A program made the position numbers and the translations under genes. The notes beneath the pieces are model-generated. The model worked only from the letters and a program-made list of their open reading frames with translations, was not told where the DNA came from and did not search any database. 64,000 nt of DNA from Tubiluchus corallicola (taxonomy: Eukaryota > Priapulida > Priapulimorpha > Priapulimorphida > Tubiluchidae), in the NCBI GenBank assembly GCA_030141605.1, contig JAQGDQ010000734.1:1-64000 (forward strand), in the 5' to 3' direction. This document shows positions 30,101 to 60,997 of the stretch, piece after piece (the stretch's first letter is position 1; each line of letters opens with the position of its first letter).

Positions 30101-33100
30101 CTATCTTGCTAGGAAATTGACTTGAGTCCATGACTGTTGCCAGATCTCTTCTATTCTCTGCATAAATCTCACTCAGAACAGTGTTTAAAGGGATACCAAC
30201 TTGTAGTGGTTCCTCTTCTTTAACAGTAGATGTCACTACCGTATTCACCTGCTAGTGACTACACTCTTCGCTGGTGCTAAAATTGCTGAAATTTGCTAAA
30301 ATTGACAGAAAATTATGGACGTTTTCGGGCAAGGCTTTCTTTGCCCATCTAAATGTCGATTGTTTAATGTTAATTTGATAATCATGCTGAGTGCGCTCCA
30401 ATTCTGGTGTGGAATTTACTAAATAAAGTAAAATAAAAATAAAAGTTAAAATGAAATAAGTTAAAAATAAAATAAATTTAAAATAAAGTTCATTAATGTT
30501 TACCTAATAAAGTAAATTGAGTAATAATGTGAAGTATTACATGGAAAAATAGTTGACTAAGGTAAAGTGTATCTGTAATTACCTTCACCTGCTTGTATTA
30601 AGTCACCTGCTCACCTGCGTTTTTTCTCTGATGCTAATTATCAAGGAAATGAGAAACAATGCAGCCGTGCGTACTGAGGAATGATTACGATACAGGAAGT
30701 CGTGCTTCCTGAAATTCCCCTCATCACATTGCACGTGCAGCTTTGTTATCCATGGTTTCCAGGCTGTTGAACCAAGGTGTTGTATTGATTTTGTAATGTG
30801 GCTGTTTGAGGCAGCTGTATTGCTGACCGACTGACTAGCGTCTGCCTGGGTCACGTGACCTGCTGATGGCAGACGGGATTACAGTAAATCACCTGCTATA
30901 ATTAATCTGTTTGACATTAATAGCTGAATCGTAGTAGTACTTAAGCTGGGTGAAATCTTGTGGGTGAAAGCTTAATGAAAACAGGGGTGGGAACACTGGG
31001 CGGGAAATCTTTTCCTGGGGCACTTCACACATAAAGCACTGGGTTGGGCTTGTACTAAATTTATTTGGAATAATTATTACAATCAGTGACTAAAATTTAA
31101 TGCTGTTTTTGTTGTTTTTCATTTTCATTTTTTCTTTGGTTTGTTTGTTTGTCTGCGGATTTTCCTCTTTATAACAATCCTTCAGATCATTTGCAGCCAT
31201 TTATCAAGTAAAGTGTTATTTGTTTGTTTGTTTGTTTATAATCATCAATATCTGTACATCATTCATTCATCCATCCATTCATTCACTCATTCATTCATTC
31301 ACTCGTTCATTCGTTTAGTCATTCATTCATTCATTCATTCGTTTATTCTTTCATTCATTCACTAATTCATTCATTCATTCAATCGTTCATTCATTCATGC
31401 TTTCTTTTATTTGCACTGTTCAGAAGTATCGCGCACCATCCAAAGCGAGTGAACAACATGTCAGCTGAAACAAATGATTTTCTAAGCATAACTTCGCGAC
31501 ATTTCGTATGTGTATCGTGGCTTTCCGTAAGCGTGCATTGCTTAAAATAATTCAAATTTCTGCAGCTTATCTAATTTTCATGCAAAAGCATCACAAAATT
31601 ACCCATCTAGTTTTAAGCTAAAACTCATTAAACTTTTGAAGGAAATTGACAGCGTCCTGCAGGCGTTTCTTCAATTGTTGGATGACGTCATTGGTGGAAG
31701 ATTAAGTGTTCAAAATGGGAGCCCCAAACGTGAAATGATTTCAATTTTAAAGTGATTTTACTAAATACATGAGGCGCTTATCACACTTAAACTAAATCCT
31801 TCTAACATTTTTCACGAACATTGAAATAAGCCTAACTTTTCTTCAATAATCAGTTCAGAACAGAAAACAAAAACATTGTGAAGAAATAACTTTATTGTTT
31901 GTATTTAGTGTTAAACTGTCTTGTTTACTGATTAAAGTTTGTTTTTCTTTCAGTATCAACGCCTCCAAGTTTATTAAATCAATCAGAACAAGATGTTATC
32001 ATAAGAGATAGATTACAATGGAGTTTAACGTGTGAGGGAATGGGATCTAGTACACCCCAAAACAAGTTAAAGTAAGTAAAGAGTATGTCAGCAGTAGGAT
32101 GTGATCTAACACAACCGTGGAAAAAGCAGAGATGTATGTAGTTAACATTTAAAATTTGAAGCAGAAAAATTTTGAGAATGAAAGTCAGTGTTAGATTGTC
32201 AACCCTTTCTGTAATGAAGGTGAAAGTCAGTGTTAGATTGTCAACCCTTTATGTAATGAACGTGAAAGTTAGTGTTAGATTGTCAACCCTTTCTGTAATG
32301 AATGTGAAAGTCAGTGTTAGATTGTCAACCCTTTCTGTAATGAACGTGAAAGTTAGTATTAGATTGTCAGCCCTTTCTGTAATGAACGTGAAAGTTAGTG
32401 TTAGATTGTCAACCCTTTCTGTAATGAACGTGAAAGTTAGTATTAGATTGTCAGCCCTTTCTGTAATGAACGTGAAAGTTAGTGTTAAATTGTCAACCCT
32501 TTCTGTAATGAACGTGAAAGTCAGTGTTAGATTGTCAACCCTTTCTGTAATGAACGTGAAAGTTAGTATTAGATTGTCAGCCCTTTCTGTAATGAACGTG
32601 AAAGTTAGTGTTAAATTGTCAACCCTTTCTGTAATGAACGTGAAAGTCAGTGTTAGATTGTCAACCCTTTCTGTAATGAACGTGAAAGTTAGTGTTAGAT
32701 TGTCAACCCTTTCTGTAATGAACGTGAAAGTTAGTGTTAGATTGTCAACCCTTTCTGTAATGAACGTGAAAGTTAGTGTTAGATTGTCAACCCTTTCTGT
32801 AATGAATGTAAAAGTTAGTGTTAGATTGTCAACCCTTTCTGTAATGAACGTGAAAGTTAGTGTTAGATTGTCAACCCTTTCTGTAATGAATGTAAAAGTT
32901 AGTGTTAGATTGTCAACCCTTTCTGTAATGAACGTGAAAGTTAGTGTTAGATTGTCAACCCTTTCTGTAATGAAGGTGAAAGTCAGTGTTAGATTGTCAA
33001 CCCTTTCTGTAATGAAGGTGAAAGTCATTGTTAGATTGTCAGCCCTTTCTGTAATGAACGTGAAAGTTAGTGTTAGATTGTCAACCCTTTCTGTAATGAA

Positions 33101-36100
33101 CGTGAAAGTGAGTGTTAGATTGTCAACCCTTTCTGTAATGAATGTAAAAGTTAGTGTTAGATTGTCAACCCTTTCTGTAATGAACGTGAAAGTTAGTGTT
33201 AGATTGTCAACCCTTTCTGGAATGAAGGTGAAAGTCAGTGTTAGATTGTCAACCCTTTCTGTAATGAAGGTGAAAGTCATTGTTAGATTGTCAGCTCTTT
33301 CTGTAATGAACGTGAAAGTTAGTGTTAGATCGTCTACCCTTTCTGTAATGAACGTGAAAGTTAGTGTTAGATCGTCAACCCTTTCTGTAATGAACGTGAA
33401 AGTCAGTGTTAGATTGTCAACCCTTTCTGTAATAAACGTGAAAGTTAGTGTTAGATCGTCAACCCTTTCTGTAGTGAACGTGAAAATTATTGCTGTATTT
33501 GTTTTGAGTCTGCAATTTTATTGAAAAAATATTTAAAAATTTAATTGGCGTCGAGGAAAACAAATTCTTAAATTGAAAATAACAGTCAGCTTAACAAAAG
33601 ACATGGCAAACTAAGTCGTAACAGCCAGCACCAACTTAATTTTACTTTTTTATTTTATTACAAAGACACCAAACAACAATACAATATAGCAAAATACATT
33701 ATGATAACATGGTGTACATAGTTACGCTAATTTCCTAATAAAATCGACGTGGCATGATATTTATGTAAATTGTTGCTTGCATTATATTCAGAAGCATTAC
33801 TTGTGTGACTATAATAAGCAAAGACATGGCTGTTATTACTTGGGAAACTGATTGGCGATAGGGAAACCAAATTCTTAAATCGTCTTTGTTTACCATGCCT
33901 TTGCTTAAGTCCATGCTGGCTGTTATTTTCATTTTAAGAATTTGTTTTCCCCTTCACCAACCAAATATTTATTTATTTTTCCATAAAATTACAAAGTCAA
34001 AAAGGATGTTGCAATAACTTTCACTTTTACTTTCATTTCACAATGTTGTTTACAAAAAAATTGTTATAAATTTTAAATTATCTCATCATCACTTTGTTGT
34101 TATTATTATTTGTTATTACTGTGATAACTTTGCTGTGAAATAGAAAGTTATATTTTCACCTGCAACATTATTTTCTATTTTTTATTTTTCGTGCAACAAC
34201 TTAGAACTGTTGAGATTCTTAAATCATGCTTCTTTTTCTACTCGTCAATACAAGCTAATTGGTTTTATTTTCACGTGAACAGATTTAGGTGGAAAAAAGA
34301 TGGCGCTTATTACAAGAAAGATAAACGACGGGTATACCAGTCGGACAGTTCCGGGCAGTTAGTATTTACGCTAGCCATGAAAGAGGACGCAGGCGAGTGG
34401 CAGTGTGAAGTGTCAAACGGTCGTGGTACTGCCGTGTCACAAATAGCTGTGGTCAAATTTGGCTGTAAGTATCTTTGCTGTAAATAGATTAGATTCGGAG
34501 CACTTCTGAATTTGCTTGCACATGCGTAATGTGAATTTGTGTATATAATTGTAGAACGTGTACACATGTGCACGCGTGTATTATTGCAAGAGTGTGGAAG
34601 GGTTGCCAGATACATAAAGCAAACAATAGCTGATTAGTTGATGAAAACTACTGTCTTGGCAATCCAATGAATGTCTGTGGTAGGGTTGCCAGAGTAAACA
34701 AAACCTAATTTGTTGATTAGCGTCAGCTGATTTGTTGATAAAAACTACTGACTTGGCAATCCAATGAACGCCTGTGGTAGGGTTGCCAGATATATGGAGT
34801 AAACAAAACCTGATTTGTTGATTAGCGTCAGCTGATTTGTTGATAAAAACTACTGACTTGGCAATCCACTGTTTGTGGTAGGGTTGCCAGATATGTATGG
34901 TTAACGAAAGCTGATTAGTTGATAAAAATTACTGACTTGGCAATTCACTGAACACTGTGTGGTTGGGTTGCCAGATATGTGGAGTAAACAATAGCTGTTT
35001 GGTTGTTGAAAACTACCTGGCAATCCACTAAACACCATTCTCTGTATTGCTCGGGACTAACATGATAAGAAAGCGACATTTTAGCTGAAATAGCCACCAA
35101 CATTTCTTGTGTTTTTTTGCGTTTATGAGGATTAGAAGTGACAAAATTAGCAGTTTCCATTTTTGCAATTTTGCCTTTAATCTTACTTATTTTGTGTTGT
35201 AATTGCTTTTTCTTCGCTGTTTAATGAATTCTTATACAGTGCACACTCGTTACAAGAATCACACGTATAAGAATCAGCTCGATATAAGAATCAACATCGC
35301 GTTTCCCGAATTGATTCGGCATTTTCCTAGTGAAAATCCGCTTGTATAAGAATCACCCTTCTTTCGATAGTAGAATCAATTTTGGCGCCAACTCCATTGT
35401 CTCTCACGCCCTGCTTACAAGGTTCTGCGCAGTGGGCGTGGCGGAAAAAAATTATGTGCTTTAAAAAAATTTTAAGGCAATTCTGGCATCATGAAATATT
35501 TACCCAACCATGAAATGAAAACATTAGTCTAGTAGTTTTTAGGTCCTTTTTAGGCCAGAAAAACATTATGCTGTTTCATGTCGTTTCTAGCGTAATTTCG
35601 GGAAATAAATAATTTTTATGTGCATAAAAATTTTTTAAAGCAATTCTGGGTCATGCTCGTTATAAGAATCGCTTGTTATAAGAATCACTTTGTCTTCTCC
35701 CGAGGTGATTCTTATAACGAGAGTCCACTGTATTCTCACAATAAATTTCAGATACTAAATTGACTTTAGATTTTGTCATTTTTTTGTGACTGGGCTGTCG
35801 ATGCGACTGTTCTGCTATTAACGGCTGTTGTTCTTGTTGTTGTTTACAGCTATTAACGGCTGTTGTTGTTGTTGTTGTTTACAGCTATTAGCGGCTGTTG
35901 TTCTTGTTGTTGTTTACAGCTATTAACGGCTGTTGTTCTTGTTGTTGTTTACAGCTATTAACGGCTGTTGTTCTTGTTGTTGTTTACAGCTATTAACGGC
36001 TGTTGTTCTTGTTGTTGTTTACAACGGCTGTTGTTGTTGTTGTTGTTTACAGCTATTAACGGCTGTTGTTCTTGTTGTTGTTTACAGCTATTAACGGCTG

Positions 36101-39100
36101 TTGTTGTTTGCGGGTTTTCCTCGTTATAACAATCCTTCAGGTCATTTGCAGCCATTTATCAAGTAAAGTGTTGTTTGTTTGTTTGTTTATAATCATCAAT
36201 ATCTGTACATCATTCATTCATCCATTCATTCACTCATTCATTCAATCATTCGTTCATTCGTTTAGTCATTCATTCATTCATTCATTCGTTTATTCTTTCA
36301 TTCATTCACTAATTCATTCATTCATTCAATCGTTCATTCATTCATGCTTTCTTTTATATGCACTGTTCAGAAGTATCGCGCACCATCCAAAGCGAGTGAA
36401 CAACATGTCAGCTGAAACAAATGATTTTCTAAGCATAACTTCGTGACATTTCGTATGTGTATCGTGGCTTTCCGTAAGCGTGCATTGCTTAAAATAATTC
36501 AAATTTCTGCAGCTTATCTAATTTTCATGCAAAAGCATCACAAAATTACCCATCTAGTTTTAAGCTAAAACTCATTAAACTTTTGAAGGAAATTGACAGC
36601 GTCCTGCAGGCGTTTCTTCAATTGTTGGATGACGTCATTGGTGGAAGATTAAGTGTTCAAAATGGGAGCCCCAAACGTGAAATGATTTCAATTTTAAAGT
36701 GATTTTACTAAATACATGAGGCGCTTATCACACTTAAACTAAATCCTTCTAACATTTTTCACGAACATTGAAATAAGCCTAACTTTTCTTCAATAATCAG
36801 TTCAGAACAGAAAACAAAAACATTGTGAAGAAATAACTTTATTGTTTGTATTTAGTGTTAAACTGTCTTGTTTACTGATTAAAGTTTGTTTTTCTTTCAG
36901 TATCAACGCCTCCAAGTTTATTAAATCAATCAGAACAAGATGTTAACACAAGAATCGCTTGTTATAAGAATCACTTTGTCTTCTCCCGAGGTGATTCTTA
37001 TAACGAGAGTCCACTGTATTCTCACAATAAATTTCAGATACTAAATTGACTTTAGATTTTGTCATTTTTTTGTGACTGGGCTGTCGATGCGACTGTTCTG
37101 CTATTAACGGCTGTTGTTCTTGTTGTTGTTTACAGCTATTAACGGCTGTTGTTGTTGTTGTTTACAGCTATTAATGGATGTTGTTCTTGTTGTTTTTACA
37201 GCTATTGGTGACTTTCCTCCCGCGGAAAAAAAGGAGTACGTGGGTGAGAAGGGGGACCCATTTAAGCTCGAGTGCGGAGACGTACCAGAAAGCATTCCTC
37301 AGGCACAGGTAAGCAATATTACTGCAGGTAACTTTCCTCAGATGTCTTCCAGGCACAGGTAAGCAATATTACTGCGGGTAACTTTCCTCCTCAGGTGTCT
37401 TCCAGGCACAGGTAAGCAATATTACTGCAGGTAACTTTCCTCCTCAGATGTCTTCCAGGCACAGGTAAGCAATATTACTGCGGGTAACTTTCCTCCTCAG
37501 ATGTCTTCCAGGCACAGGTAAGCAATATTACTGCAGGTAACTTTCCTCCTCAGATGTCTTCCAGGCACAGGTAAGCAATATTACTGCGGGTAACTTTCCT
37601 CCTCAGATGTCTTCCAGGCACAGGTAAGCAATATTACTGCAGGTAACTTTCCTCCTCAGATGTCTTCTAGGCACATGTAAGCAATATTACTGCAGGTAAC
37701 TTTCCTCCTCAGGCTATCACACTCTTATTGCTAAATCTTAACATTGTTCCCGAACATAGAAATAAGTATAGAAGGCGCAGTTTTATGAAATAACTTCCCC
37801 GAAGGTTTGGCCTTCACTTTAAAATAAGTTAATGTCTCTGTTTATTTTTAAAACGTTACATTCAAGTTCATTAACAGCACCACAGCTATTAAACTTGCTG
37901 CTTCGTTAAACACGAAATTAATGAGGTAATTAAAGAAAGTGCTTTGCGCTAATGTCTGGAATATTCTCCAGTCACAATAGATCATTAATTAAATTTACAC
38001 TTTGTGCAATGAAAGTTTATTAAAAATTTTACGGCTGCTTTATCGTATTCATTGCTGCATTAATAATTCATTTCAGCATTTTAAAACTTTACTTAAATTC
38101 AGTTGTGATTGGTTAAATTCATTATCTGCATGTACATATTCATGTAGGCAGAATATTTTACTTAAACTACGTCATTGTGATCTTGGCGACAACTTTCATT
38201 TGTTTCAACCAGATGACCTGCTGATTAAGGTCACTTTCTTAACCTCCCGATTGTGAAATGGTAAATTTAAATGTTTTGTAACTGGAAGATGGTTAACTCT
38301 TGTGTTTCTTTTTATTTTATATTTTATTTTATTGCACCAGGTAATTTAAAACACACATAAAACTACCTATAGGTTTGTCTAAAATAGTTTAGCGAGTATA
38401 CATTAAGAGAGAATTTCTAACTCTAATTGGTAAGAATAACAGGCCTTCAATTAATTAGCTACATGGTATAGGGACATAGTATTTGCTGCACATGTTTTGA
38501 GTTACAAAGCTTGTACAAGTTTGTTGTATTTGCTGCACATGTTTTGAGTTACAAAGCTTGTACAAGTTTGTTGTATTTGCTGCACATGTTTTGAGTTACA
38601 AAGCTTGTACAAGTTTGTTGTATTTGCTGCACATGGTTTGAGTTACAAAGCTTGTACAAGTTTGTTGTATTTGCTGCACATGTTTTGAGTTACAAACTTG
38701 TACAAGTTTGTTGTATTTGCTGCACATGTTTTGAGTTACAAAGCTTGTACAAGTTTGTTGTATTTGCTGCACATGTTTTGAGTTACAAAGCTTGTACAAG
38801 TTTGTTGTATTTGCTGCACTTGTTTTGAGTTACAAAGCTTGTACAAGTTTGTTGTATTTGCTGCACATGTTTTGAGTTACAAAGCTTGTACAAGTTTGTT
38901 GTATTTGCTGCACATGTTTTGAGTTACAAAGCTTGTACAAGTTTGTTGTTTATCAAAGCATTGATTGGAGAAGATTTTATGGTGGACTCATGAATTGCTT
39001 GTCTTGTCACAGCATATCCATTCTGCTGACAACTCTCTATTATCGGGGAAACTTAATTATTATTTTTTTTTTTCATTTGGGATCTTCTTCTTCTTCTTCC

Positions 39101-45100: not shown

Positions 45101-48100
45101 AATGTATTGGAAGACGATTTTTTGTCAAAAAACTTCTTACTTGCGACATAAAAACTTCTGTAGAGCTGAACTTTGGCAAGCCTGTTGTTGGGCTTAAAAT
45201 TACGAAGATAGCTTATTCTAGGATAAAACTAAGGCGTAGCAAAAGTACTTGTTTGACCTTGAGAAGGTCAGGTCTTTTTTTGAAATAACTTTGATTCTCA
45301 TGGGCGATGTGGTTAGTGTTAATATTGATGTGTATTAGAAGCACGTAACTATAGAATTTTGAATATTTAGTTGACTGCATCGCATTAATCGTATTGCAGC
45401 TGCCGGCGACTTCGACTCACGGATCATCATCCAGGGTCCGAAACGCAACGAACTCATCATCGCTGACCTGAAGAGAGATCTGGACACGGCCGTCTTTCAG
45501 TGCAAGGCCACGAACAAACACGGTTACATTTGGACGAACTTCTACGTCAATGTTCTTGGTAAGTTCTTCTAGTGTCGTTACTTTTCTGAGTTATTTTCTT
45601 CAGTTTTTCTTAACCCTTTCACTATGTAGTTGCTTTTTAACTGGGCCACTTTGACTTTTGCTCGATCTACAAGTGATTTTGCGTATGAACATGAACCATA
45701 CAGTGCACCATTGTGGAATGCGCCTGGCTTCAGATTCTGATTTCCTGCTTAGCCTTACTAGTTGCGAAGCAACCCCAACCCCCCCGGCCTTTTAAACTTT
45801 TCTACAATGTTTGCATGGGCGTAACATTGAAGTAAACAGACCTGGGTGACTGCGCTTAGTGCTGAGCTTGAGCAGTAATCTACCGCCTTCCGTACGGCAT
45901 TGTGCCGCCTTCTGTAGTGAAGTGGCTAAGCCTATGTAAGCTCTGTGTTGCACACCTACATTGTCAGCAGATTAATCAGATTATGTAATCAGATTGCATT
46001 AATAATACTGCCATATTTTTTCTGCTATTTAGCAGCTCTTTAATTTATCAATTTTATGAAGAAGAAAAACGATATACAATTCAAAATACATGATAATATT
46101 ATGCAATATGTATTCTTTCACAGTACAATGGGTTTTAATAAGTAGTTTTATAATAAGTAACTCTGCATGTTATAAAACACTGAAGCATATGTGATACCAA
46201 AAATAATTCTTTGCGAACAAAGGTTTTGAAGCTCATTTCACGAAAGTTTAGCTCACACTTTTTTCCTCATCACAGTATGCTGCTTAGCTTGTGATGCCAT
46301 CTTATTACATGTTATTGTCTTGTTACTAAAGTTACTTAAGAAACACAGTCCATTTATTATCACAAGTAGGCCAGCAAATTAGCCAAGCATCATTATTATA
46401 ATTAAAGTTTTACTTTGTTTTTACCCTGGCACATTTACCTGAGATGCTCAAGTGCCTCACCTGTAGAGGTGAGCTGAGTGTGAAACCATGGTTTTGTTTG
46501 TCATTATTACCTGAGATGCTCGATTGCCACACCTGTAGAGGTTGGCTGAGTGTGAAACCGTGGTTTCGTTTCTGTACGTGAATGTGCTGTAGACGTTAGC
46601 TGAGTGTGAAATCGTGGTTTTGTTTCTCTACATGAATGTGCTGTAGACGTTAGCTGAGTGTGAAACCGTGGTTTTGTTTCTGTATGTGAATGTGCTGTAG
46701 AAGTTAGCTGAGTGTGAAACCGTGGTTTTGTTTCTGTATGTGAATGTGCTGTAGACGTTAGCTGAGTGTGAAACCGTGGTTTTGTTTCTGTATGTTAATG
46801 TGCTGTAGACGTTAGCTGAGTGTGAAACCGTGGTTTTGTTTCTGTATGTGAATGTGCTGTAGGTGTTAGCTGAGTGTGAAACCGTGGTTTTGTTTCTGTA
46901 TGTGAATGTGCTGTAGACGTTAGCTGAGTGTGAAACCGTGGTTTTGTTTCTGTATGTTAATGTGCTGTAGACGTTAGCTGAGTGTGAAACCGTGGTTTTG
47001 TTTCTGTATGTTAATGTGCTGTAGATGTTAGCTGAGTGTGAAACCGTGGTTTTGTTTCTGTATGTGAATGTGCTGTAGACGTTAGCTGAGTGTGAACCCG
47101 TGGTTTTGTTTCTGTATGTTAATGTGCTGTAGACGTTAGCTGAGTGTGAAACCGTGGTTTTGTTTCTGTATGTGAATGTGCTGTAGGTGTTAGCTGAGTG
47201 TGAAACCGTGGTTTTGTTTCTGTATGTGAATGTGCTGTAGACGTTAGCTGAGTGTGAAACCGTGGTTTTGTTTCTGTACGTGAATGTGCCGTAGACGTTA
47301 GCTGAGTGTGAAACCGTGGTTTTGTTTCTGTATGTTAATGTGCCGTAGACGTTAGCTGAGTGTGAAACCGTGGTTTTGTTTCTGTACGTGAATGTGCCGT
47401 AGACGTTAGCTGAGTGTGAAACCGTGGTTTTGTCTCTGTACATGAATGTGCCGTAGATGTTAGCTGAGTGTGAAACCGTGGTTTTGGTTCTGTATGTTAA
47501 TGTGCTGTAGACGTTAGCTGAGTGTGAAACCGTGATTTTGTTTCTGTACGTGAATGTGCCGTAGACGTTAGCTGAGTGTGAAACCGTGGTTTTGTTTCTG
47601 TATGTGAATGTGCTGTAGGTGTTAGCTGAGTGTGAAACCGTGGTTTTGTTTCTGTATGTTAATGTGCCGTAGACGTTAGCTGAGTGTGAAACCGTGGTTT
47701 TGTTTCTGTACGTGAATGTGCTGTAGAAGTTAGCTGAGTGTGAAACCGTGGTTTTGTTTCTGTACGTGAATGTGCTGTAGACGTTAGCTGAGTGTGAAAC
47801 CGTGGTTTTGTTTCTGTATGTTAATGTGCTGTAGACGTTAGCTGAGTGTGAAACCATGGTTTTGTTTCTGTATGTGAATGTGCTGTAGACGTTAGCTGAG
47901 TGTGAAACCGTGGTTTTGTTTCTGTATGTGAATGTGCTGTAGACGTTATCTGAGTGTGAACTTGTGGTTTTGTTTCTGTATGTGAATGTGCTGTAGAAGT
48001 TAGCTGAGTGTGAAACCGTGGTTTTGTTTCTGTATGTGAATGTGCTGTAGACGTTAGCTGAGTGTGAAACCGTGGTTTTGTTTCTGTATGTGAATGTGCT

Positions 48101-51100
48101 GTAGACGTTAGCTGAGTGTGAAACCGTGGTTTTGTTTCTGTATGTTAATGTGCTGTAGACGTTAGCTGAGTGTGAAACCGTGGTTTTGTTTCTGTATGTG
48201 AATGTGCTGTAGGTGTTAGCTGAGTGTGAAACCGTGGTTTTGTTTCTGTATGTGAATGTGCTGTAGATGTTAGCTGAGTGTGAAACCGTGGTTTTGTTTC
48301 TGTATGTGAATGTGCTGTAGGTGTTAGCTGAGTGTGAAACCGTGGTTTTGTTTCTGTATGTGAATGTGCTGTAGGTGTTATCTGAGTGTGAAACCGTGGT
48401 TTTGTTTCTGTATGTGAATGTGCTGTAGGTGTTATCTGAGTGTGAAACCGTGGTTTTGTTTCTGTATGTTAATGTGCTGTAGACGTTAGCTGAGTGTGAA
48501 ACCGTGGTTTTGTTTCTGTATGTGAATGTGCTGTAGATGTTAGCTGAGTGTGAAACCGTGGTTTTGTTTCTGTATGTGAATGTGCTGTAGGTGTTAGCTG
48601 AGTGTGAAACCGTGGTTTTGTTTCTGTATGTGAATGTGCTGTAGGTGTTATCTGAGTGTGAAACCGTGGTTTTGTTTCTGTATGTTAATGTGCTGTAGAC
48701 GTTAGCTGAGTGTGAAACCGTGGTTTTGTTTCTGTATGTGAATGTGCTGTAGACGTTAGCTGAGTGTGAAACCATGGTTTTGTTTCTGTATGTTAATGTG
48801 CTGTAGACGTTAGCTGAGTGTGAAACCGTGGTTTTGTTTCTGTATGTGAATGTGCTGTAGACGTTATCTGAGTGTGAACCCAGAGTTTTGTTTGTCATTA
48901 TTTTAGTTTGCCAGCCATTTTATCAATCTATTTTGTTAAGAATTTATTCTTGTTTTTAGCCATTCCACCTAAATGGATGAAGAAACCAGAAAAAGTTTAT
49001 GAACTGATAAACAATAACAATGGAGAGTTACACTGTGAAACGTTTGGCATGCCAAAATCTAAAGTTGTCTGGTTTAAGGACAAGAAGAAACTGAACGATG
49101 AAAGTGATGACCGCCTGGAGGTAAGAAATTTTCTAGATAGAGTTTGTGAATTCAGGGATAATTTAGAAATTGTTTCTTCCTAAATTTTTGTTTGTTTAAT
49201 ACATGAAAGATCGGTTTTCTTTGTCTGTCTGTCTGTCTGTTTGCATCAGTTTGTTCCAAAGTTTTGTTTGATATTTGCAACTAGGGAAGAAGCTATTGAC
49301 ATCACAACATCTACTTGACTACAAAAGTTGAGCAGTACTAGGCTTGTTCAGTAAATAGACTGGGTAAACCCTTAGAATATCATAGTGTCTTTGGATATTT
49401 ACTTAATGGGGAGAACTGTACTTTGATAATAATAAAACTCCAATGCTGTACATGCATACATATGTCGCTGCTTCCTTCCGCTTCTTCGCGTTTGATAATT
49501 TGTCAACTTGTTTGACTTTTTCTACAGATTATGGAAAACGGGAACCTGCAAATCAATGGAGTCAAATTCTCGGATAGGGGTAATTACCTCTGTAACGCCT
49601 CTAACACCTTCGGCTCTGAAAATTCATCGACCAAAGTTATTGTGAGAAGTAAGTTGTCTTTTATTCATTAATTTTTTTTGTTTATTTTTGTCTATTTGTT
49701 CAAATAAGGACAAGATAAAGAATTTTATTTGATTTATTCATCAGTGCACTTCCTTACTCATTTAGTTATCTGTTTTTTTGTTCACCTCACCCATCTATTA
49801 ATTGACTCAAATATGTATTTATTTGTCTTTTCTTTCATTCATTCATGCATTTATTCATTCATTAATTCATTCATTCTTTCATTCATTCATTTATTTATCC
49901 ATGCATTCATTCTTTTATTCATTCATCCATTCATTCATTTATTCATTCATTCATTTATTCATTTATTTATCCATGCATTCATTCTTTTATTCATTCATCC
50001 GTTCATTCATTTATTCATTCATTCATTCATTTATTTATCCATGCATTCATTCTTTTATTCATTCATCCGTTCATTCATTTATTCATTCGTTCGTTCGTTC
50101 ATTTATTCATGCATTTTTCTTTTTCGTAATTCATATCATCATTTATATGTCAGTTTACTTACTATTTTACCTTTTTTGTTTTAATTTCATTTTCGTCATT
50201 TACTGATTAATTAGTCATACAGTTTCTCATCTTGTTTCTTTCTTTTTTAAACTAGTAAATATTTGTAACTCACGCGGTGTTATATTTAGCATTACGTAAA
50301 TTAATACTAAGTATGGCAGAATGTTTATCGAAACAAAATTTGTACCTATGACCCAAACTTTGAGCAATTTGCAATATGGATGAATAACAGTAATCTTGTA
50401 GTTGACTATCATTGTACATTGTAATACTCGTTTGCAGAGAAGACCGTATTTGAAGACGTTCCATACAAGCAACAGGCAGAGAAGGGAGAGAATGTAGAAT
50501 TCAAATGCAGCGCTAAGGGAGATCAGGCATCACGGATTATTGTTTGTAAGTTTTGCTTTCAGTCACTTGATGCTAAGCATGAGTACGTTTTAATGGTGGT
50601 AAGTAGGTAATTTGACCGGATAGTCCTTTTTGTTTGACCATTTGATTTTGGTAATTTGACAGGATAGTATTTTTGGTTTGACCATTTGATTTTGGTAATT
50701 TGACCGGATAGTCCTTTTTATTTGACCATTTGATTTTAGTAATTTGACCGGATAGTCCTTTTTGTTTGACCATTTGATTTTGGTAATTTGACTGGAGTCC
50801 TTTTTATTTGACCATTTGATTTTGGTAATCTGACCGGATAGTCCTGTTTGTTTGACCATTTGATTTTGGTAATTTGACCGCATAGTCCTATTCATTTGAC
50901 CATTTGATTTTGGTAATTTGACCGGATAGTCCTTTTTATTTGACCATTTGATTAACTAACTTGTAGAAAATGAAAGAGGTGCTTCTTTTCATATTATAGT
51001 CATTTTTTCCGGATGACTGACTAGGTCAATGAAGCTGGTGTTTGGTTTCAGAATTTTCATAAGTTAGTACTGAACTCATCAAGTTTAGTATTTGAATTTC

Positions 51101-54100: not shown

Positions 54101-57100
54101 AACACATGAGCACATTTTCGATATCAAACATTTTTCAGCTCGGGAATTTCGAGTGGATCTTTCACCTTGGGCACAATATACATTCCGCATCATTGCACGA
54201 AATGAGATTGGCAACAGTGATCCAAGCGACGTAACAGACATCTGTGCCACGCCCGCTGCACGCCCGTCCAAGAATCCGGACAATGTGCGTGGCAATGGAA
54301 CTACTCCAAACAATCTTGTGATTAGCTGGGATGTACGTAGAACTTAATTTTTCTTATTAAAAATTTGGCAAATTTAAACGTTTTCATAATAATACAATTT
54401 GCTGATGCGAACTGATTTTATTTGTCGTTTTACCGGATGTTTTTGTCTGAATTACTTCTATATTTTAGCTTAAAATTAAATCTTATTTTTTATTGTTGTT
54501 TCCTTTCTCGTTAATGGTTTTTAGTGTTATGTTTTCATTTATTTATTTTATTCATAAATTAATCAATAACGATCCGGTTTCAAATCCCGAGATCTGGTAA
54601 TTTTAGTGGATCTCAATCCGATCATGATCCGGCAGAAATGTTTGTTCGATTTTCGCTGTTTGTATTTCTGTAAAGTGATTGTGAAAATAGCTAGTCTTGG
54701 TAGGAAAAAAATACACAACAGTTTCATCAGACTTGATTTTTTTAATAATTTGAAAGATTTCTTTTAAAATCCTCCATAATTTATGAAGATATCGCTTAGT
54801 TTTATGCTGCCGTGATTGTAATGCACGCAATTGTCGTTGTGAACGACCGAAAATCATAAAAAATACATTTAATTTGCAATTATATTAATAACCTGTAAAA
54901 CAGCTATTACTGTAGTAGATACGGCTTCTATCTATCTGTTACCTATTCTAAAAATGTGTTTAACCTAATAGTGAACGGTTGCTCTAGTTTTGCTATATTC
55001 TCTACTACCAGTTGGCTTTTACAACACATTATGTGCAGACATCATTTTACCTGTAAGCTGTGGAATTTCTGTCCAATTTCTGTGGAAACTTCTGTATCAA
55101 TAAACGTTTAAAGTATATTCTACTGTTATACCTTTTGTCAACACGACAGCAATACCAGCAATCTTCACACTGTGGTTTCTTGCTGAAAATAGCACGCAAA
55201 GATAGCGCTATTGCCGCAAAAACATCTGGTAAAAATTTAGAGCCATCTACTTCCATTAAAAGTATGTTTCATTGTTTTTGGTTTACACTCAACAAAAAGA
55301 GACGATACTATATGTGGCATATGTAATAAATGTTCAGATCAAGTGTTCAGAATTTCAGCACAGCAAAATTTCCCAGTGACCCTGAAAACGAACATCATTT
55401 ACATTAAACTGTAGGCTCGGAACCGGATCCGGATCCATCACATACTGGTACGGATCCCATCCGAGCCGGCAAAAAATATGCTTTGTTTTAGTGTTTAAAA
55501 TGTTGCCAGTTGTGACATCATTAACATCCATGTTTGATTCTTTCGTAGTTTAAAGAAATTTTATGACTTTGACGTTTCTGTTTGTTTCGTTTGAAGGAGA
55601 TGGAAATGTTGGAGCAGAATGGACCTGGATTCTTCTACCAGGTGGAGTACAAGCCGCACGGTGCCGGCGACGATGAATGGGTCACAGTCAACATCACTGA
55701 CCCAAAGAATACCTCAATAATGGTGCATCCAACGGACACGTATCAACCGTACGACATCCGTGTTGAGGCTCACAACGACATGGGTTCCGCCATCGTGCCT
55801 GCGGTGGAGATGGTTGGCTATTCGGGTGAAGACAGTAAGTAAACAGCTGAAAATATTCAATCCACATACTGATACCCCTGTGTGCTTTTAGCCTCACATA
55901 CCCCTGTGTGCTTTTAGCCTCACATACCCCTGTGTGTACTTGTTAGTAGTTTTCCTGATCACTTGCTTCATTGTACTTCGTTGCTTTTGCTTACGTGATT
56001 TTTAAAATACATTTCCAAATCAGATCTTCGCAGCTGCAGATGAAACACGGTAGGATTTTTCTAATATTTTTCTGTACAGTCTTAATTATTTGACAACTGA
56101 ATTTATCTCTTATGTGTCTGGTGGACAGCATTTAAGCTGATAATACACCTCGAGTATTTGCAGTGTTCCCTTACTTATCGCGGGTGTTCCGTTGCAGGCC
56201 CACCCGCGATAAGTGAATTTCCGCGAAGTAGGGACTAATTTTAGTAGTCTCACGTCGGTTAGTAGCATCTCAAGCGGGCGCAAGTACTACATTTCGTTTT
56301 TGGTGTGTGTTCATCCGCCGAATAAATACACTATTTACTATACATAGTAATTTTTTATGATTTATAATATTCTTTTAATGTTAGAATTAATATTTTTAAT
56401 ATATTTTTATACATTTTGTGATTTCTTGTGCAAAGTCATCAAATCTATACATTACTGTACAATAAGAATTACGCATGTGCAAAATCATAATTGTAAGTTG
56501 ACCTAAAACGACAACAAAAATCAGGAGGAGGATGAAAGGAACATGTAAGATAGACTGAAATGAAAAGGCAAGAGAAAGCAGGATCAATTCAGTTATCCAG
56601 GGGAACTTGGTTAGTTATGTTAGTTTTTATTCGAATATAAAAAAATTCAAAGTGAATTGGCCGACTTGGCCTAGACTTCATTTTTGCTGTTTCATTATTA
56701 TAGACCTGTTTATTTAATTTATTTCCTAAATGCGATAAATAATATATTGTTACTTACGTTACAGTCAAAATGTTACAACTACAAAACAGAACAGAAATTA
56801 AAGTTTCACTAAATATTGAGAATCGGCACAGGCCAAGAAGGTAGACTTGTTCAGGCCTTAGGAGAGGCAAAATGGAGAGACATAGATGGGTGAAAATAAA
56901 GTAATCGGGGCGAATGAAATGCCAGTATGATTGTAAGAGTAATGATAATGACAAGTGAATGAGATGATTATGAAAATGAAGATTAGATTTCACATGAAAA
57001 TATAGGCCCAAAGAGAAGTAGATCAATCAGCCTGCTCATAAATTGCTACTATGATGTAAAACAGTCGTGTGTATAGATTTTAGGAACCAGTTTTTTGCCT

Positions 57101-60100
57101 TGGTACAAAATATTTTAAGTTAGCTGCAGAGCTTTTGTCACATTTATTTTATTGATGTTTATTTTTTGGTTTGTTTACTGCACCAAACATTTTTGTTTTC
57201 AGAATCCAATTACATTTCTGTGCCATCTCCACTACCTTCTCCATCGTCTACAACTCCATCGCCGTCAACAGTACCTCCACCATCTATTCCCGTGCGGAGT
57301 AACTTTTCAACTCATTCATCACGTAACCTTTCCCTGTCTGCCGTTCCTGACATCATCACCTCAATGTCGGACAGCCTCGCTACCATATCCAGTACACTGT
57401 CCACCATGTCGGACACCATTTCCTTCATGTCCAATGTCCTGTTGGACAAACCGGAAGCGGCATCCGCCGTGTCCGAGTCAATCTCTGCTATGTTGCCATC
57501 CATCTCGGCAATGTCGGACACCATTGTTACCATGACTGACACTCTTTCTGCCGTATCTGATACAGTGTCTACCCAATCACCGGTTAACTGTACACAAAGT
57601 GTGGATACGATGTCTTCTGCTTCCGACGTAGCTGAATCCGAGTCCGCTTCCCAGAATACAGTGTTAGATGAGACATCAAAGACGACGGATTTTGTATTTC
57701 CATTATCTGCATTCAGCACGGAAACGATTGTAGATTCTTACCTACCAAATAATCTAAGCAGAGATCCTAATGTCGACCCTTTCATTTTGCTTTCGAATGA
57801 GTCGTCTGTTGATGTTTCTCCACCGTCTTCAAAAACTTTGAACGTCTCTGACAAATCATCCACTTTTATTAACCTGAATTCTTCAGCAGTTGCTGACATG
57901 TTCATTTCGAAAACGGAACGATTGCCAGTCGAGGAAATAAACTTGCTTGTGGAGGCTGCAAGCTTGCCTCCTCTCAGTACTAATTCTTTTGCTATTACCG
58001 AAAGCTCATCAGCCCAGGTTTTGAGTTCTCCTGGAAATCAATTAAACCGTTCATCACTCAACACGCCACGCTCTTCTGCTAAGATTGCACACTCGCCTGC
58101 AAAGAGTGCAAGCTTATCTACTACATCTGAAAACGTACCCGTGCAATCTGCTGATGCATTTACTAAGACTGTAGGTGCATCTGCTGACATGCCATCTGAA
58201 CCTGCAAGATTACCAGGTGAGGTTGCAGATGCATTTGTGAAGAATGCAATCACATCTGTCCAGACTCCTATTTTATTTACGGAAACAGTAGATGCATCGT
58301 CTACTGATTCCGCAATCTTGTCTCGGACGAACTTTGGCACATCTGACAGTGCGTCTAGGACATCTACAAAAACTATGGAGAAGTCTTCAAGATTATCCTC
58401 GGACACTGTCCAATCAAGTCCATCATATTTAGAATACATTGCAAGTGCAACGTCTCAGCAAGCTGCTGTTGCAGTAGCTAATGCTATGAAGTTGTCCCAG
58501 CACCTTGGTGATTCAGTCGATGTTCCAACTGAAGATGTTGTTGAGCCTGCTAACACATCTCACTCTGTTTCTGAAGACCTTTCTTTGCTCACCTCCAGAG
58601 CTATTGACATGCGACAGAACTTCTCTAATGTACTGGTGACCCTGAATGCAATATCTGAAGCGCAGGAAATGATGTCTCAACCAAACTCTTTTGTCCCCGA
58701 CGTTCTAGCCATGATGGCCTCGGTCCTTTACTTGATATCGGAGACGTTTCCAGTTATGTCAGAGATAATTTCAGTGCTGCCAGAAACTGCCTTTACGGAG
58801 CCGGCTTCAGATTCCATGACTCCGACCGTTGTGGCTATGTCTGACACCATGTCCGTAATATCTGACACCCTCTCTGTGATGTCTAATACACTCGAAGCGA
58901 TGATTGTGGAAAATTTTACCGATTTGGTCGTCAATGCCACGTTGGACGACATTGATCCAGTCATGTCAGATGTGAATTCAACATTGCAAGACATCGTTTC
59001 TAGGATCAAAGATGTCAGTTTTTCAATTCGGACAATGAACAAAACAAAACCGAATTATGGCCCAAATAACGAAACCAAATCAACTTTCCAACTGATTAAT
59101 GAAACAAAGTTAAATTATGAAGTAAATAACAACACCAAGCTTAAGTACGGTCTGATTAACGAAACCAAGCTAATGCATGAACTAAACAATGAAACCGAAC
59201 TAAAATATGAACTGAATAATGAAAGCGAAGTGAATATTGAAAGCGAACTAAAATACGAACTGAATAATGAAACCAAATCAGAATACAGACTGAATAACGA
59301 AACCAAATCAGAATACAGACTGAATAATGAAACCGACTCATATGATGAAATGGAAACACTAGATACTAATTCGTCGTCTTTGGATCTCAATTCGTCAACA
59401 TTAGACGGTATTTTTGACGTCAAGCCAGAAGCTGACCTGTCTAATGCAACTTCGCCTCTTCTCTTTAATTTCTGGATTATACTCGAATTCGGCAATGGTA
59501 CCAGACCATTTGGAAGTACATAATGGTTCTTTCCTTCCTTTTTCATAATTGATTGAACGTTATTTTACTCGTTTTTAGTTCCGTGTTATTGACAATTTTG
59601 ATTTGTACATTTTTGGAATTTTTGTACCTTTTTTAATTTTGTTGATTTTTTTGTTAATTAAGAGCTTAGGATTGAGGAAGTCATCAGCTTTTGAGATGAG
59701 TGCATTCGTTCTTTCCCGTCGGTTTGTTCCTTTTTAGAATCAGAAAAATTATAATTTTCTTATTAGGATTTGTGCAATAAATTATTAGTTTATCAGTTTT
59801 TGATTTTTCTACTGGCTACTGCTGTCCACCTCCACCATCACGAGTACCACCATTTACATCAATATCAGCTTTATCACGTCATTTCAAAAATAGTTTTGTT
59901 TTGTATGAAATAATTTAAACATTTTGCAAAATATAAAGTAGAAAAGTCGTATAACAATACGTCATTGCTCATTCAGTAATAACAACAACATTTTCTGCAA
60001 GTCTCGTCCATGTTTTTGGCTTTACACGTTTTGTGGTCACTTTTTGGTCAACAGAGGACAGCACCACTGTTTATTTTCAGTAGCCTGATTCATGAAGTGT

Positions 60101-60997
60101 GCCTGCTATGTGCTGGTATTATTGCTACTAGTGAACTCGTCAGTTAATTTGCATATTAAGCATGACAGTATAGAGATGTGGTTCAGGCAGTGAAGTGATG
60201 GAGCGGTTTCTTTTATTCATTGACTGTCAGGATCATCTGCTTCCTCTGCTTCCTCGTTTTCTCTTCACTTAAAATATTAAATTACGTTGTTGTTGTTGTT
60301 ACTTGTTTGTTTTACTAAACCTATTTCAAATTGAGAATTTTGAGTATTATTTCTTTGTTAATGTTGCCTTAATGATGCTTGTTAGTACAACCACTATGTT
60401 GCGCACTTAGTTTAATTACAACAGTATAATTCACTGAAATCGTGTCATTAATGCTTTTTTTCTCAAACATTTACAGTTATGACATGTTTGAAGTTACTGT
60501 TGTTCATTCAATTATTCAGCCGACATATGTAGTATCCATGCTTTTCCAGAGCCGGAAGTAATCCCACAGGAATTCCAGGTGGCACGCGTGTTAGGTCCTC
60601 GCGAGGCAGAGTTTGCCTGGAAAAAAGTAGAAAATGACGTTAGCAAAATTAAGGGAGCTTTTGTCGGATACAAGGTAGGTTATAGTTTTTGTTTTTGACA
60701 GCTATTAGTTCTAGTGGTGAGTTCACATGTTTTGTTCCTTTGTTTCTTTTCTACTGTCTAATACTCTGATTATTTTTTCAAACTTTACACAATGTTATCT
60801 AAACTTGTTTCAAATGAGTTGTCATCAAAATAGCTGCGTCTAACGGTCATCGCGGAAGGTTAAATATACATGTCTTATACAGCGTTATCGCCGACGCAAG
60901 TCTGGCAAAATGCAAAATGCAGTATGTAAGTGGTATAAAACTGCAAGACGAATTTTTTAAGCTTATGTTAAGGTAGGGTTTTCTTGTGCTTTAAGGA

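Follow-up and report, generated by a model that had tools for sequence, protein, structure and literature searches.

Cell adhesion proteins of the L1 type signal mostly through homophilic binding at the membrane. Several departures from the ordinary membrane form have been described among these proteins and related adhesion molecules. In NCAM, the SEC exon is short and bears a stop, and it gives rise to a secreted Ig/FN3 adhesion molecule. Leech tractin, an L1-type protein, has an additional stretch of repeats within its FN3 domains' region; we know of no terminal truncation in that protein. The PAT domain of neurofascin lies close to the membrane.

Secreted IgSF forms arise from splicing or cleavage, according to passages of PMC4810158. 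Soluble human and mouse L1CAM, known as L1-deltaTM, is described in sections of PMC6398979 as a case in which splicing yields a secreted L1-type protein active on other cells. The neurofascin PAT domain is a spliced ectodomain insert in an L1-type protein, and exons 26-29 encode PAT together with the fifth FN3 domain (PMC5595909, in part). Passages of PMC2346466 name leech tractin as an L1 homologue. The closest system by gene family is Drosophila neuroglian, for which sections of PMC8904962 describe ELAV-regulated Nrg167 and Nrg180 forms that depend on an alternative last exon and on the choice of a proximal poly(A) site. Soluble L1 made by splicing, ectodomain inserts and the choice of the nrg last exon are each already known. 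Among the matches listed from the open-access literature, none described a neuroglian or L1 protein cut off behind FN3-2 and completed by a long new domain, which is not proof of absence in print; neither "soluble neuroglian" nor "secreted neuroglian" appeared in the best 15 of 19 papers matched in one of these searches.

Here we describe a neuroglian locus in the priapulid Tubiluchus corallicola, located in a 64,000-nt stretch of contig JAQGDQ010000734.1 that was analysed as a whole and is hereafter called the window. Our favoured reading, which we consider likely, is that 57203-59523 is a coding alternative last exon of neuroglian, an exonised and selected minisatellite that would yield a secreted neuroglian.

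The host gene and its ordinary continuation

The host gene is assigned to neuroglian (L1 type). The FN3-1 and FN3-2 domains upstream of the long exon matched Drosophila neuroglian 1CFB through the final residues GYSGED (E 1.4e-43, the top of 46 matches with E ≤1e-5), and this match bears out the neuroglian-type gene proposed in a preliminary description of the same DNA. Reading the frames by eye in the window and in the downstream contig identified the L1/neuroglian domain set, namely Ig halves, FN3 regions up to the fifth, a membrane segment and a FIGQY tail. On the same contig 3' of the window, FN3 exons are found at ~64069, ~65125 and ~65937; the membrane segment (~73599) and a GSFIGQY tail (near 76006) also lie beyond the window. 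This domain reading starts at the second half of Ig1. Exon borders are based on by-eye reading of frames together with splice scans, and the exon numbers 16 and 18 used below are those of the preliminary description.

When five short exon pieces were compared with Pfam, one Ig piece passed the cut-offs of both ig and I-set; of the FN3 pieces, one passed the fn3 cut-off and two did not reach it. The FN3-3 half exon had no Pfam match at all; it has a counterpart with 46% identity in the paralogue described below. The canonical membrane protein looks intact from the second half of Ig1 onward, and the long exon is an addition to it. The features around the long exon are as follows, and a 576-codon open frame is also present 3' of the neuroglian gene (G000:C1316:91154-92881).

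55597-55834, plus strand: second-half exon of FN3-2 (exon 16), ending in GYSGED plus one base (phase 1), with the donor ACA/GTAAGT
57203-59523, plus strand: candidate alternative last exon, with 772 codons following the junction codon and then a stop, assigned from splice and phase fit and from its coding frame
59524-59800, plus strand: putative 3' UTR, 50% T, with seven T runs of at least 5 and AATAAA at 59776
60550-60674, plus strand: first-half exon of FN3-3 (exon 18), the ordinary continuation, in the same phase as the long exon

The long exon: splicing, coding signal and 3' end

The open frame extends over 799 codons from stop to stop (57124-59523), and from the acceptor at 57203 it encodes 772 residues followed by TAA. 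The acceptor, tttttgttttcag/AA, scored 5.5 on a generic matrix. On this matrix the values for nine further acceptors in the neuroglian gene were 3.0-6.0, a comparison that lacks the gene's weaker acceptors because only those above a cut-off of 3 entered the set. The exon ending at 55834 leaves one base, and the junction 55834/57203 reads A/AA (AAA, Lys), with the last codon as the sole stop; the junction 55834/60550 reads A/AG (AAG), likewise Lys. Acceptors 57203 and 60550 each contribute two bases to the junction codon, so the two exons are interchangeable in phase. Both the translation and the junction codon AAA agree with the earlier claim of a 772-codon open exon entered in phase 1, as the FN3-2 exon requires, and the two junctions support the proposal that the long exon and the FN3-3 exon are same-phase alternatives. 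Sequence features of an alternative last exon are present (a phase-compatible acceptor, an in-frame stop and AATAAA), the last of these being common in the window.

Given the frame's own base composition, the chance of 772 open codons is P 4e-19. The exon contains no stops versus 26.7 expected (SD 4.4, minimum 15) in 500 shuffles that kept the base make-up of each codon position, a difference that rules out a chance open frame. Three-base periodicity was 16.8-37.7 bits in seven 300-nt segments of the exon (57300-59399) and 1.8-6.6 bits in four 300-nt segments within 55800-56999. The intron segment 59700-59999 is an exception at 17.0 bits, and the 95% quantile over the whole window is 31.6 bits; segments of high periodicity outside the exon are probably due to minisatellites. 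GC content is 48% in the 100 nt after the acceptor at 57203, 27% in the 100 nt before it and 38% in the 100 nt preceding those. Synonymous codon preference, trained on 1068 host-gene codons from 20 of the 21 exon pieces (the tail piece was dropped for its stop), was -0.022 per codon in the exon frame and -0.053 to -0.075 in intron frames. The +2 frame of the exon (-0.001) and one reverse frame (+0.002) scored no worse than the exon's own frame, and the measure is uninformative because the host gene is almost flat. Judged from its sequence, 57203-59523 is protein-coding.

Downstream of the stop, the 277 nt rank in the top 0.3% of segments for T runs (seven) and in the top 3.2% for T content, and folding of the poly(A) region is ordinary (z 1.0). 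There are 65 copies of AATAAA on the plus strand of the window (~1 per kb), so the copy at 59776 alone is weak evidence; within the frame itself, AATAAA occurs at 57936 and ATTAAA at 58041. In Drosophila nrg, the choice of last exon depends on ELAV, which attaches to U-rich sequence in the intron and prevents use of the proximal 3' end, as described in passages of PMC8904962. By analogy, the U-rich stretch ahead of the proximal poly(A) site points to a possible switch like that of Drosophila nrg.

Segments, repeat ancestry and genomic copies of the exon

The exon protein can be divided into five segments that follow its first 42 residues.

57331-57576, plus strand: heptad block 1, exon residues 43-124, with a 3.5-residue hydrophobic period and 21-nt repeat ancestry
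57577-58572, plus strand: Ser/Thr-rich spacer, residues 125-456, with a weaker 21/42-nt signal, its frame kept, without protein-type codon-position bias
58573-59034, plus strand: heptad block 2, residues 457-610
59035-59364, plus strand: decapeptide array with Asn-Glu-Thr sequons, residues 611-720, with a 30-nt period
59365-59520, plus strand: C-terminal end, residues 721-772, with a short hydrophobic LLFNFWIILEF that is too short to span a membrane and is not at the very C-terminus

The preliminary description called the exon non-tandem. This holds for recent repeats, as Tandem Repeats Finder rows for the exon are confined to 59161-59334, but it does not hold for older ones, as a 21-nt periodicity spans residues 43-610. 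None of 2000 codon shuffles reached the observed 21-nt signal in residues 43-124, 125-290, 291-456 or 457-610; in residues 611-772 the signal is absent (reached by 1123 of 2000 codon shuffles). Identity one repeat apart at codon positions 1, 2 and 3 was 0.47, 0.69 and 0.33 in block 1 and 0.35, 0.54 and 0.33 in block 2, with 0.24-0.32 at other lags in each. Across the spacer (residues 125-456) the corresponding values are level at 0.35, 0.34 and 0.34, with no protein-type constraint visible; the second half of the spacer shows its highest identity at position 3 (0.35, 0.37 and 0.43).

A hydrophobic period of 3.5 residues was detected in residues 43-124 and 457-530 (shuffle p 0.0002 for both, the floor with 5000 shuffles) and in residues 531-610 (p 0.001), and was not seen in the spacer, residues 125-456 (p 0.90). 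The limits of the heptad blocks were picked after the hydrophobic profile had been viewed; in a whole-protein scan, which is free of that choice, the maximum was reached by 0 of 1000 shuffles. The heptad count used 13 units in a fixed register, taken from three runs chosen by eye; among them are VPDIITS, MLPSISA and MTPTVVA, which selection by an amino-acid pattern would have passed over. The +2 frame of block 1 is also heptad-periodic (10.3 vs 16.9 in its own frame), so part of the heptad period stems from the DNA repeat. Our reading is that an old 21-nt repeat would have had its heptads held at the protein level in both blocks, and that the spacer would have drifted and mainly been kept open. 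Helix convergence on similar amino acids would yield part of the codon-position pattern in the blocks.

The exon contains 27 N-glycosylation sequons versus a shuffle mean of 15.0, and only 3 of 2000 shuffles reach 27. Residues 1-600 hold 13 of these versus 8.8 (SD 2.5), and the excess comes mostly from the Asn-Glu-Thr array. Ser and Thr together make up 28% of the exon and Pro 6%, and the Ser/Thr-rich stretch is interrupted by the heptad blocks. The earlier term mucin-like may suit part of the exon, which also contains the two heptad blocks and the Asn-Glu-Thr array. A Pfam search with the exon listed two families, neither above its own cut-off (best E 0.074), and a PDB search gave five matches (E 0.01-0.016) that were judged to be chance. 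No membrane span was found in the exon; its top 19-residue hydropathy is 1.68 vs 3.56 in the canonical segment, which rules out membrane anchoring by the exon, and a GPI anchor was rejected by eye. FIGQY does not occur in the exon translation. Because the exon combines the lack of a membrane segment with N-glycosylation sequons, a secreted glycoprotein is the natural reading, and the secreted isoform on a glycosylated stalk that had been proposed earlier is upheld to that extent.

In a DNA search of the 343.5-Mb assembly, which passes over simple repeats and common words, the exon was found once, as itself. A protein-level search, in which 58 of 94 candidates were scored, gave 36 matches, consisting of the exon itself and 35 weak matches (E 3.1e-7 or worse); these weak matches map to the sequon array or its flanks, to residues 31-177 and, in one case, to 392-444. 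No second protein-level copy of the exon was found among the 58 of 94 candidates scored. With one DNA match and no such second copy, a transposon origin was rejected. The weak matches include ordinary 21-nt minisatellites readable as heptads, on contig C714 (20-22 copies) and, by repeated reading, on C53. Exonisation of a 21-nt minisatellite array would be the simplest origin of the exon. Longer internal exons are reported to hold more tandem repeats (PMC12457776).

Other repeats and open frames were observed as well. Two 21-nt repeat arrays in opposite orientation, readable as Ser-Arg-Asn-Ser-Asp heptads, are present at G000:C714:681-3713. The window abounds in repeat arrays; in it, a 763-codon open frame on the minus strand (46628-48919) lies within a 54-bp minisatellite of ~44 copies, and a comparable frame at 32160-33524 has a 42-bp unit in ~31 copies. 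One 69-residue reading occurs twice (31546-31752 and 36493-36699), ~4.95 kb apart and with neighbouring frames repeated too, and this pair is probably a segmental duplication. The frame at 1746-1964 bears GVPQGSVIALTLFLLLFINDLP, which looks similar to part of a LINE reverse transcriptase.

The genome contains a second, more compact neuroglian gene (G000:C2055:215202-230273), whose FN3-2 exons are 64% and 54% identical to those of the window. For 17 of the 21 canonical exon queries, the best match was on C2055, collinear and on one strand within a 27 kb region; among the remaining four, one matches another Ig exon, one is weak and on the other strand, and two have no match at E <0.05. The C2055 intron between the FN3-2 and FN3-3 exons (~0.65 kb) has no 100-codon frame, and the C2055 region has no significant match to the long exon (best E 2.1). 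The long exon is therefore not a feature of both neuroglian copies, and it would have been either gained in this copy or lost from the C2055 copy. Elsewhere, on the minus strand of G000:C2166:69341-72154, three FN3-like matches (E 4.7e-10 to 7.8e-7) fall in one 2131-codon frame, a giant FN3 exon.

Competing readings and known systems

Two donors inside the long frame bear on how the exon might be spliced.

58216-58217, plus strand: internal donor CAG/GTGAGG, phase 1, giving a 1014-nt in-frame cassette with 60550
58348, plus strand: second phase-1 donor candidate, ACA/GTGCGT

With these donors, 57203-58216 (1014 nt, 338 codons), or the stretch up to 58348, would be a cassette exon spliced at both ends into full-length membrane neuroglian, so that FN3-2 and FN3-3 would be separated by heptad block 1 and some of the Ser/Thr-rich spacer; we consider this form, which the preliminary description does not raise, unlikely. 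Donor 58216 is in the right phase and ranks first among the 4651 GT sites scored with a generic donor matrix, the join 55834/57203...58216/60550 stays open, and GTGAG is also found at 1 of the 18 donors read in the gene (65242). On the gene's own matrix, built from those 18 donors, donor 58216 scores only 1.0, which is below 15 of the 18 in a leave-one-out comparison and is equalled or beaten by 284 of the 4651 GT sites. Donor 58348 scores 2.7 on the gene's own matrix but 0.1 on the generic one. A cassette would also leave ~434 codons 3' of 58216, including heptad block 2 and the sequon array, open without reason. The cassette form and the last-exon form may coexist.

It is quite improbable that the exon is part of a nested gene, transcribed independently and starting either in the intron or at Met 54 inside the exon. 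From an intronic start at 56357, a frame with hydrophobic N-terminal residues leads to a good donor in phase 1 at 56492, and such donors are rare (two distinct ones on the plus strand of the window, 56492 included, and one on the minus strand). This first exon, 56357-56492, was rejected; its donor leaves T, and T/AA produces a TAA stop at the junction, so this one route fails; first exons outside the intron might still serve. Met 54 has no signal sequence by eye, and the 53 exon codons ahead of it are open. The 21-nt periodicity across residues 43-610 might also be taken to mark an aged non-coding minisatellite, open by accident, and both the 21-nt arrays elsewhere in the genome that read as heptads (C714 and, by repeated reading, C53) and the 763-codon minus-strand frame within a 54-bp array are in keeping with that idea. 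However, in the spacer and at position 3 of the blocks, repeat identity hardly exceeds the level found at other lags, and still the frame has no stop against an expectation of 26.7; in both heptad blocks position 2 is better conserved than position 3. We regard an accidental origin of the open frame as very improbable.

Under the favoured reading, a coding alternative last exon, the acceptor at 57203 would be used and the transcript cleaved after the AATAAA at 59776. The product would retain the Ig domains and FN3-1/2 and would lose FN3-3 to FN3-5, the membrane segment and the ankyrin-binding FIGQY tail. It would be secreted with a long Ser/Thr-rich, N-glycosylated tail of 772 residues, which the heptad blocks may cause to self-associate; in that case membrane neuroglian would meet the released ectodomain as a multivalent ligand or decoy. 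The proximal end might be the default and be turned down in places rich in ELAV/Hu protein. The exon would have arisen in, or survived only in, one of the two neuroglian paralogues. A fuller scenario, which we put forward tentatively and with considerable doubt, is that neuroglian was duplicated and one of the copies then recruited a 21-nt minisatellite in an intron as its last exon of 772 codons, that the two heptad blocks were selected, and that the result is a secreted, self-associating, multivalent guidance ligand or decoy beside the membrane receptor, the proximal poly(A) site being switched in the manner of ELAV.

A secreted form encoded in the genome, with the Ig domains kept and everything past FN3-2 replaced, would provide the receptor with a ligand or antagonist built into its own gene. 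The exon would also be a readable example of a long coding exon derived from a minisatellite, with its repeat ancestry and selected blocks still visible, and the C2055 paralogue, which lacks the exon, would be an internal control.

Compared with known systems, the Tubiluchus exon resembles the NCAM SEC exon in that a stop-bearing exon would produce a secreted form; however, SEC is short, whereas the exon described here encodes a 772-codon domain. In L1-deltaTM, the membrane exon is skipped as an in-frame deletion without a new terminal domain, whereas here a new terminal exon would be added. The neurofascin PAT domain depends on a choice between inclusion and skipping, whereas the Tubiluchus exon would be terminal; only the cassette alternative would be comparable to the PAT insert. 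A coral "neuroglian-like" skeletal matrix protein, described in part of PMC4043741, provides a precedent for a matrix location, without a link to this exon. In Nrg167 and Nrg180, the extracellular and membrane regions are identical and only the cytoplasmic end differs, according to passages of PMC2346466, whereas the Tubiluchus protein would be cut after FN3-2.
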